Shown: one piece after another, positions 12,660 through 15,184 of the stretch | Numbering within the stretch: the first letter of the stretch is position 1 | Layout of the letters: each line of letters opens with the position of its first letter | NCBI GenBank assembly: GCA_025059875.1 | Contig: JANXCT010000001.1 | Coordinates: 434,001 to 498,000 of the forward strand | Direction: 5' to 3' | Source: Candidatus Kapaibacterium sp. | GTDB lineage: Bacteria; Bacteroidota; Ignavibacteria; Kapaibacteriales; HRBIN21 | DNA: 64,000 nucleotides | Translations under genes and position numbers: made by a program | The notes under the pieces: model-generated | Database searches by the model: none | Told to the model about the DNA's origin: nothing | What the model saw: the letters and a program-made list of their open reading frames with translations, nothing else

Positions 12660-13049
12660 CTAGGTCCGGCTGTGGTCTTCCAATTCGGCTACGACAACCG
12701 CCACAGCATGCGTTGCCGTGTGCGACAGCGACACGTGGAAGCAGTAGCCGCTATAGCGGCGTGCTAGTTCGCCTCCAAGCAAGAGCTCCGGTTCACCCAG
12801 TTGGCCGTTGACGACGGAAATCGCATTCCACAGGCACGGAGGGCGCATCCCTGTTCGGATGGCTTTGCTGAAGGCCTCCTTGGCAGCAAATCGGGCAGCG
12901 TAGTGAAGGGCACGTCGCTGGCCAAAGCGGTCGCAGTACTGGCGCTCCACGTCCGTGAAGATGCGGCGAAGGAAGCGTTCGCCGTAGCGTTCTATTGCGG
13001 CCTCTATGCGGCGGACCTCAACGATATCAACGCCGATGCCGACGATCAT
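12660..13049 (-). CDS. acpS: Holo-[acyl-carrier-protein] synthase
   Basis: 129 residues. AcpS attaches 4'-phosphopantetheine from CoA to the serine of acyl carrier protein. The N-terminal GIGVDIVEVRRI and the central FAAKEAFSKAIRTG contain the Mg-binding Asp and the Glu/Lys of the active site, and the C-terminal HVSLSHTATHAVAVVV is conserved. The ATG at 13049 overlaps the TGA of the upstream sirtuin gene (ATGA), which fixes the start. A longer frame beginning nine codons earlier would run into the sirtuin gene without need. It is the last gene of a four-gene overlapping operon. Confidence 0.94.
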   Translation of the reverse strand: MIVGIGVDIVEVRRIEAAIERYGERFLRRIFTDVERQYCDRFGQRRALHYAARFAAKEAFSKAIRTGMRPPCLWNAISVVNGQLGEPELLLGGELARRYSGYCFHVSLSHTATHAVAVVVAELEDHSRT

Positions 13050-13816
13050 CCTGCCTTCGAGAGCTTTTGACGGCATTCGCAGAGCCGGCGGAGGAGCTCT
13101 GGCAGAACAGTTGCTGCGGAGCCGCGGAGAGCGATGTCGGCAGCAGGTGTTAGCTCCGTTGGGTTGGGGTTCACTTCTATCACCGTTGCTCCCGCCAGTT
13201 TCGCCTGCCAGACGAGCCCTGCCGCTGGGTAGACCTCCCCTGAGGTGCCAATCGAGAGTAATACGTCGCAGCGAGCGACTGCTTGCTCCGCTTCAGCGAA
13301 GACGTCCTCCGGCAAGAGCTCCCCAAACCAGACTACAGACGGGCGGATCCGACCACCGCAGTGGGGACAAGTAGGAGCTCTTTCTTCGGGCAGATTCGGT
13401 GCCTCGTAAGGCCGGCCACAGCGATGGCAGTGGTTCCGCAGGATAGAGCCGTGGAGCTCCAGCACCCGGCGGCTCCCGGCACGTTGGTGGAGTTGGTCAA
13501 TGTTCTGCGTGACGACCGTGAACTCCTCGAAGTGCGGCTCCATAGCCGCTAAGGCGTAATGCCCAGGATTGGGTTCAGCAGCAGCGATGACGCGGCGGCG
13601 GTGCTGGTACCATGCCCATACGCGGTCTGGGTTCCGTTCGAAGGCTTCTGGAGTCGCAAGCTCTTCCGGTCGGAACTGCTCCCAAAGTCCTCCAGGGTCG
13701 CGGAAAGTAGGAATACCGCTCTCGGCGGAGATTCCCGCACCGGTAAAGGCAACCACTCTACGAGCTTGGCAGAGTCTTTCAGCAGCCCGCTGATATGCCG
13801 TACCGTCGGCGCTCAT
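13046..13816 (-). CDS. cobB: Sir2-family NAD-dependent protein deacylase
   Basis: 256 residues, the usual size of a bacterial sirtuin. NAD-binding GAGISAESGIPTFRD is at 26-40, TQNIDQLH at 103-110, the catalytic His in LELHGS at 122, and a complete zinc site at Cys130, Cys133, Cys150 and Cys153. Tyr70 and Arg73 form the YxxR pair that in class III sirtuins (SIRT5, CobB) recognises negatively charged succinyl or malonyl lysine, so desuccinylase activity is likely as well as deacetylation (inference). It overlaps both neighbours by ATGA: the ubiquitin-like gene before it and acpS after it. Confidence 0.92.
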   Translation of the reverse strand: MSADGTAYQRAAERLCQARRVVAFTGAGISAESGIPTFRDPGGLWEQFRPEELATPEAFERNPDRVWAWYQHRRRVIAAAEPNPGHYALAAMEPHFEEFTVVTQNIDQLHQRAGSRRVLELHGSILRNHCHRCGRPYEAPNLPEERAPTCPHCGGRIRPSVVWFGELLPEDVFAEAEQAVARCDVLLSIGTSGEVYPAAGLVWQAKLAGATVIEVNPNPTELTPAADIALRGSAATVLPELLRRLCECRQKLSKAG

Positions 13817-14082
13817 CGTCGCATGTTACAAGTGCCACCGGGTGCCAAGAGCAGCAAGTCTCCTGCTCGAGTGCCTCGATCGGCAAGAGTGTCGGTGCGG
13901 AGGTACTCGAAGTTCTGCGTCAGGTTGTAGAGCCCTAAGGAGTCTACGTCAGCACTGAGCTGAAGCTGTTCGGCAAGCTGCCCGAGAAAATCCTGGATGG
14001 GATGCTGAGCCGGTAGCTGCAGGCGTAGAATCTGTCCGGAGAAGGCCCGGCACACGAAGACCTCAATTACGGCTGCTGCCAT
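13813..14082 (-). CDS. Ubiquitin-like beta-grasp protein (EsaB/YukD or MoaD-like)
   Basis: 89 residues that read as a single beta-grasp domain: strand (VIEVFVCRAF), strand (GQILRLQLPA), helix (IQDFLGQLAEQLQL), then LYNLTQNFEYLRTDTLADRG and a final strand ending DLLLLAPGG. The TLADRGTRAGDLLLL stretch resembles the EsaB/YukD ubiquitin-like family. A diglycine sits at 82-83, followed by only six residues (TCNMRR). Its start lies 16 nt inside the upstream gene and its stop overlaps the sirtuin start (ATGA). No E1, E2 or JAB-type peptidase is adjacent. The assignment is by pattern, and a MoaD/ThiS relative is possible. Confidence 0.6.
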   Translation of the reverse strand: MAAAVIEVFVCRAFSGQILRLQLPAQHPIQDFLGQLAEQLQLSADVDSLGLYNLTQNFEYLRTDTLADRGTRAGDLLLLAPGGTCNMRR

Positions 14083-15059
14083 AGGAGCTGACCAACCAGT
14101 TTCCGGACTGCTCGCCGAAACTCCAGCACAGAGTCGTCGTGCACCTTGGTGTCCGCGGCTGCGATGAGCTCTGGAGCGATCGCTTGGCCGACTCGGGAGA
14201 GCCGGTAGAGCTCCATCCGGAGGTGGGCTCCCTCGCTCGTTCGCTGGAATGAGCCGGCAAGGAGGTACTCTACGCCCATGTTGGCCAGCAGCTCCAGCTC
14301 TAAGGCTGTCGGCGGATTGTAGTTCTCGGGCTCACGGAGTCGGCCGAGGGCATAGATGGAGTCGCGCGTGTCGATGTCACAGACGACGAAGCGGGGATGG
14401 TGGCGGGCGGTGTCAATTGCATTGAGCACGGCATCGTAGGAGCTGACGACCTTCTGCCGGAAGAGCTGCCATGGTGGTAGTCCCGGCTCTTCGCTGTAGC
14501 TGATGCTGCTGACCGCCAGTAACGGAGCTGGATAGACCCGTAACGGGGGCTCGTGGGTAGCGTACAGTGTGCTGTCGCCGACGCAGAGGGCAAATGCTCG
14601 CTGGGTTGCTTCTAAGAGTGCCGGGTCGTAGAGGGGCTCTCCTGAGCCGACTCTCGCGTATCGAGCCAGCGCGTAACCGACGCCGCGGCTTTCGGACTCA
14701 TACTCCGGCGCCCATCGCAGCACGACCTCTACGCGGACCAGGTGGACGAAGCGCTCTGCCAGAGCAAAGCAGATAGCGGTGCATCCTAGACGTTGCGCCA
14801 CAGCCCGTACTGTCGGTGCCAGCCCTTCACGCTGAAGGGCTTCGATGACCGAGTCTCGCTGTAGTGCAGGGACGACGGTGTATCGGCCGGAGACCTCCAC
14901 AGCGAGCGTAATGGCAGCCTCTAACTTCTGTGTGCCGAAACCAGCAAAGCCAGTGCCGAGTCGGGCCTGAGCAATGAGGATCGCTGGCGGCAAGATGGAG
15001 TCGTTTGCCCGGCACAGGGTTCCCGGCAGTGCACCAAGAGCAAGAACGAGGAACCACAT
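14067..15059 (-). CDS. Unknown exported protein with two TolB-N/CsgG-like modules
   Basis: 330 residues beginning with a signal peptide (MWFLVLALGALPGTLCRA) and no lipobox. I do not recognise a named family. The sequence seems to hold two alpha/beta modules: residues about 25-110, with YTVVPALQRDSVIEALQREG followed by AVAQRLGCTAICFALAERF, and about 215-320, with a parallel order ending NMGVEYLLAGSFQR. That alternation resembles TolB N-terminal or CsgG/LpoB-like folds (inference). Its last 16 nt overlap the ubiquitin-like gene, and it is the first gene of the operon leading to the sirtuin and AcpS. Confidence 0.6.
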   Translation of the reverse strand: MWFLVLALGALPGTLCRANDSILPPAILIAQARLGTGFAGFGTQKLEAAITLAVEVSGRYTVVPALQRDSVIEALQREGLAPTVRAVAQRLGCTAICFALAERFVHLVRVEVVLRWAPEYESESRGVGYALARYARVGSGEPLYDPALLEATQRAFALCVGDSTLYATHEPPLRVYPAPLLAVSSISYSEEPGLPPWQLFRQKVVSSYDAVLNAIDTARHHPRFVVCDIDTRDSIYALGRLREPENYNPPTALELELLANMGVEYLLAGSFQRTSEGAHLRMELYRLSRVGQAIAPELIAAADTKVHDDSVLEFRRAVRKLVGQLLWQQP

Positions 15060-15184
15060 TGGTCCTACCGTACGCTCTCAGCAGAGCACAGACGCCGGAG
15101 GAGCAGAGGCCAGTGTAACGGCTTGTTCTTAAACGGTTTAGCACTGCTCGGCGTCTATTGCCTGGGCACAGGGAGGTAAGGGCG

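Follow-up and report, generated by a model that had tools for sequence, protein, structure and literature searches.

Four overlapping minus-strand genes in the window, a 64,000-nt stretch of Candidatus Kapaibacterium sp. DNA, encode an exported protein (EXP), a ubiquitin-like protein (UBL), a sirtuin (Sir) and the holo-ACP synthase AcpS. They are best explained as a conserved composite housekeeping operon, probably co-transcribed, with UBL as a non-covalent adaptor, and not as a four-part machine; we put the probability of this reading at about 0.6. The operon would consist of two separable modules, EXP-UBL as the older pair and sirtuin-AcpS as a pair specific to the order, tightly packed in a compact genome. 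In such an operon EXP would be an envelope protein, and UBL a cytosolic, YukD/EccD-related protein that may act as an adaptor or assembly factor through non-covalent binding to its partners. The sirtuin would remove lysine acyl groups in an NAD-dependent manner, and AcpS would convert apo-ACP to holo-ACP. The grouping would most likely serve shared expression or reflect an ancestral neighbourhood; a functional link among the four genes is less likely.

Organization of the four genes

EXP (14067..15059, minus strand) encodes a 330-amino-acid-residue exported protein with tandem TolB-N/CsgG/LpoB-like domains, and UBL (13813..14082, minus strand) an 89-residue ubiquitin-fold protein with conserved Cys11 and Cys85. 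The CobB/SIRT5-type sirtuin gene lies at 13046..13816 and the AcpS gene at 12660..13049, both on the minus strand. Counted from its conserved start codon, the ATG at 13049, AcpS has 129 residues; the ORF listed as reaching 13076 begins further upstream. The three overlaps, on the same strand, were read directly in the sequence and agree with the original prediction: 16 nt between EXP and UBL (14067..14082), retained in most congeners, ATGA between UBL and Sir (13813..13816) and ATGA between Sir and AcpS (13046..13049). Stop and start codons overlap at all three junctions, as in translational coupling. The unit is flanked upstream by the divergent pdxA gene and downstream by the convergent queA gene, so EXP-UBL-Sir-AcpS is a complete directional unit. 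The intergenic region between EXP and pdxA (15060..15157, no strand assigned) is the presumed operon promoter; no match to the sigma-70 consensus was found in it. A simple codon-usage gene caller gave 34 same-strand neighbours in the window, of which 12 overlap, five by 4 nt. Overlap by itself therefore weighs little, and the tight overlaps could not be upheld as the mark of a special protein-modification unit, which the original prediction had taken them to be.

Conservation of gene order

The window comes from a compact, 1.97-Mb, 98% complete genome of a hot-spring-type Kapabacteria relative. Its same-genus relatives are hot-spring and Kapabacteria MAGs, e.g. Bacterium HR21 and Candidatus Kapaibacterium SKYG35. 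The comparison within the order covered 61 genomes, which are mostly draft MAGs and, as relatives, not independent. Family f1 is that of the window and f2-f10 are other families of the same order, while f14, f16 and f63 belong to the same class but lie outside that order.

EXP-UBL-Sir-AcpS was found in the same order and on the same strand in f1 (6/6 genomes, all of the window genus; EXP of G005 is cut by a contig end), in two f8 genomes and in one f10 genome. UBL-Sir-AcpS was found likewise in three f5 genomes. The bacteria that keep the operon are one group from hot springs and freshwater. The synteny in relatives on which the original prediction depended thus exists. No other gene within ~8 kb was common to the window and the f8 and f10 neighbourhoods, so the four-gene string, the only synteny found between f1 and these families, is conserved well beyond chance. 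Selection or strong inertia keeps all four genes together, which counts against the composite reading and would allow a functional link among them. In literature searches, with most subscription papers outside their coverage, neither this operon nor Sir-AcpS pairs were found described.

The two gene pairs occur separately

Of the 61 genomes compared within the order, 46 have a sirtuin, and in 26 of these Sir immediately precedes AcpS; 14 of those 26 (in f2, f3 and f6) had no UBL in front of the pair. Among the class genomes drawn from outside the order, no Sir-AcpS pair was seen by inspection. The EXP-UBL pair was found in f1, f6, f8, f10 and f16; in f6, one f8 genome and f16 it stood without adjoining Sir-AcpS. 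Both pairs are present in G010 on different contigs, and G027 has the EXP-UBL pair with no sirtuin detected. A single EXP gene was present in each of 49 of the 61 genomes, including genomes without UBL (the two matches in G005 are fragments lying on different contigs). It was present in all 21 genomes with UBL (Fisher p 0.005, a value inflated by kinship, since f7 supplies most of the EXP-less genomes). A sirtuin was found in 16 of the 21 genomes with UBL versus 30 of the 40 without it (p = 1, no association), and five of the 21 had UBL without any sirtuin.

In f10, a terminator-like 9-pair hairpin followed by CTTTTTTT lies between UBL and Sir, and EXP and UBL are separated by ~250 nt with a promoter-like TTTGCA-N16-TATAAT site. 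The gene order is thus maintained there without evident co-transcription, which further weakens the idea that tight packing marks a special unit. In the AcpS tree all UBL-linked copies fell, weakly (47/61), on one side of a branch; the Sir tree, which is disturbed by the truncated row L103, needed four changes for UBL linkage. These trees speak weakly and do not settle whether UBL joined the two genes once. The case also warns that genes of an operon may overlap and be conserved together although the operon is composite.

The ubiquitin-fold protein

UBL was 54-67% identical across five congeners, with the third codon positions most divergent and a dN of 0.31-0.43 versus a high or saturated dS among congeners. 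This identity and codon-position bias indicate a real gene, and the doubt whether the ORF is conserved was thereby removed. The AlphaFold model showed a ubiquitin fold with a loose tail (pLDDT 88.7). The top structural neighbours by Z were ubiquitin-like domains of the mycobacterial type VII proteins EccD5 and EccD3 (Z 11.8-11.1), tied with ubiquitin and ISG15; the PDB entry of YukD, 2bps, is absent among the 50 structural matches listed, which is no evidence against likeness. The Pfam YukD model matched the window UBL at E=0.0079 (17.4 bits, curated cut-off 27) and its relatives at a best E of 9.1e-6, with 5 of 23 members matching. A sequence search of solved structures gave weak ubiquitin matches only; PPAR-gamma matches in it were taken as chance.

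In most members the Gly-Gly of UBL is internal, before a C-terminal Cys, and it is replaced in L044 (TT), L057 (GS), L058 and L064 (GA) and L062 (GQ). Almost all members keep the Cys that follows, and it occurs together with Cys11. Both Cys11 and the tail Cys (Cys85) are present in most UBLs and both are absent in f63 and in one f14 UBL, L045 being the single exception to their co-occurrence; His86 accompanies them in most UBLs.

No ThiF-type E1 was found above the cut-off in the window's own genome (G000, 98% complete), whereas 11 of 14 controls were above it, and no E1, E2 or JAB gene was recognised beside UBL. The lack of a ThiF above the cut-off in G000 also suggests that standard sulfur-carrier activation for thiamine or molybdopterin does not operate there. 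WXG100 proteins were not found in the same genome, with a positive B. subtilis control. Because no E1 is detectable and the Gly-Gly is not kept, covalent conjugation of UBL is very unlikely, as judged from sequence. These features, together with the missing WXG100 proteins and the description of YukD as not conjugated (PMC1779556), suggest that UBL is probably a non-covalent adaptor.

UBL resembles YukD/EsaB and the EccD domain in its ubiquitin fold, in having EccD as its top match by Z (11.8), though level with ubiquitin and ISG15, and in its weak match to Pfam YukD, which stays below the cut-off in the window copy. It differs from these systems in its Gram-negative host, whose genome lacks WXG100, in an extra C-terminal tail with a conserved Cys and in its other gene neighbours. 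EsaB is required for type VII secretion (PMC5845737); such a role was rejected here for want of WXG100 in the genome, and anti-phage defence was rejected as no PADLOC match was found. A YukD-like ubiquitin-fold family is thus documented in Gram-negative bacteria. Its tail has a conserved Cys, sister lineages encode it beside ferredoxins, and in the host genome neither WXG100 proteins nor an E1 for conjugation could be detected.

The exported protein

The AlphaFold model of EXP (pLDDT 90.2) contained two copies of one alpha/beta domain. Residues 178-330 resembled the N-terminal domain of TolB (Z 12.8, 121 residues, 3.1 A), and residues 23-165 resembled CsgG (Z 11.7, 131 residues, 4.0 A) and PelC (Z 10.7). 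No Pfam model reached its cut-off, the single match being TolB_N at E 0.066 for one sequence out of 12, and TolB appeared at E 0.17 in the search of solved structures. Full-length Foldseek matches to ribosome-biogenesis proteins were disregarded (TM about 0.16, rmsd 17-22 A). By eye, the window copy has an apparently ordinary signal peptide, and a lipobox is present in most relatives outside the genus; both point to export. On its modelled fold, EXP is a putative envelope protein with two TolB-N/CsgG-like domains. It is like TolB N-terminal/CsgG/LpoB/PelC proteins in the fold of each half and in being predicted as exported or a lipoprotein, and unlike them in having two domains in tandem, no propeller and no pore segment. 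An exported EXP and a cytosolic UBL should occupy different compartments and hence not meet directly.

The sirtuin and AcpS

The identity of the sirtuin, like that of AcpS, is certain from Pfam and NCBIfam. Its Tyr70 and Arg73 lie in YQHR (YxxR), as the original prediction had stated, and GAGIS, TQNID and LHG motifs and a Cys4 zinc ribbon were also read. In its YxxR, catalytic motifs and zinc ribbon it is like the CobB/SIRT5 class, with nothing unusual in the window copy; its pairing with AcpS is order-specific among the genomes compared. It belongs by family to the CobB/SIRT5-like NAD-dependent lysine deacylases, acylated lysine being its presumed substrate. AcpS matched TIGR00516 over its full length (104.8 bits, cut-off 59.8), which confirmed the earlier assignment. 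No difference from AcpS of that family was seen, and conversion of apo-ACP to holo-ACP is the activity predicted from it.

Malonyl- and succinyl-CoA chemistry could connect Sir and AcpS. A link between CoA or acyl state and deacylation, as first proposed for the whole unit, is thus possible for Sir and AcpS only, on pathway knowledge; the part of the proposal that included UBL was not supported, as UBL showed no association with Sir (p = 1).

UBL neighbourhoods outside the window genus

Outside the order, in three families, UBL lies between a Fer2 ferredoxin gene (fd1) and a gene for a thioredoxin-like/sucrase-ferredoxin-like [2Fe-2S] protein (fd2), for example at L109:4903-5825, L108:5671-6569, L058:4325-6868 and L111:4306-6892. 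The neighbourhoods read polX-fd1-UBL-fd2 in f14, fd1-EXP-UBL-fd2 in f16 and fd1-UBL-fd2 in f63. Within the order they read polX-fd1-EXP-UBL-Sir-AcpS in f10, polX-EXP-UBL-Sir-AcpS in f8 and polX-EXP in f3. No close homologue of fd1 or fd2 was detected in the window genus. On the simplest reading, the ancestral neighbourhood was UBL with ferredoxins and EXP, and the sirtuin was a later neighbour.

TmoB and RnfH are other ubiquitin-like proteins encoded in redox operons (PMC1779556). The f14, f16 and f63 UBLs are like them as small ubiquitin-like proteins encoded beside redox components; the likeness is one of description, not of sequence-family comparison, and the window UBL differs in having no adjoining ferredoxins.

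Alternative explanations

These neighbourhoods bear on a tentative and unlikely reading that makes UBL an accessory protein with a redox or metal link. Its ancestral partners would have been the two [2Fe-2S] ferredoxins, Cys11 and Cys85 (with His86 in most) would be joined in a disulfide or bind a metal, and only UBL and EXP would have been retained in the window genus. The ferredoxin neighbours in f16, f14, f63 and f10 fit it, as do the nearly constant joint presence of the two Cys, the His/Asp-rich tail of the f10 UBL and the redox operons of TmoB and RnfH. However, the f63 UBLs stand beside two ferredoxins without either Cys, no close fd1 or fd2 homologues were found in the window genus, and the joint Cys losses may represent only about two events. 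A wider form of the idea, which we hold to be decidedly unlikely, makes UBL a new non-conjugating, non-type-VII ubiquitin-fold family: ancestrally a thiol- or metal-dependent [2Fe-2S] ferredoxin adaptor, it would have been recruited in Kapabacteria alongside an envelope lipoprotein and the deacylase-AcpS pair, there linking the envelope to redox or acyl state. If the ferredoxin or the envelope link holds, the ubiquitin fold would gain one more non-covalent function.

We give little credence to the original proposal of an acyl/CoA-linked modification unit of UBL, sirtuin and AcpS in which UBL recruits or regulates the sirtuin. The order and strand shared by four families, the YxxR motif and the CoA chemistry that could join Sir and AcpS would agree with it, but UBL occurs without a sirtuin in five genomes and Sir-AcpS without UBL in 14, the f10 hairpin falls between UBL and Sir, and outside the order UBL adjoins ferredoxins and not Sir. 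Direct UBL-sirtuin-AcpS coupling was accordingly not supported. That UBL is a covalent modifier or a thiocarboxylated sulfur carrier is hardly credible: the ubiquitin fold and, in most members, a Gly-Gly ahead of the C-terminal Cys would suit such a protein, but this Gly-Gly is non-terminal and substituted in the five loci named above, and neither a ThiF/E1 above the cut-off in the 98% complete genome nor a recognisable E1, E2 or JAB gene beside UBL accompanies it.

Other features of the UBL loci

The C-terminus of the f10 UBL carries His/Asp-rich repeats (L030:8488-8597), and in two f16 genomes (L085, L086) such repeats lie in frame before UBL; both could bind metal. A PolX-type PHP polymerase gene is located upstream of EXP in f3, f8 and f10 (L115, L116, L126, L127, L029, L030, L033) and also upstream of the f14 UBL cluster. 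By inspection, all four f14 genomes with UBL coordinates (G299, G468, G490, G493; loci L066 and L067) have AcpS on the UBL strand, 5-6 kb downstream.
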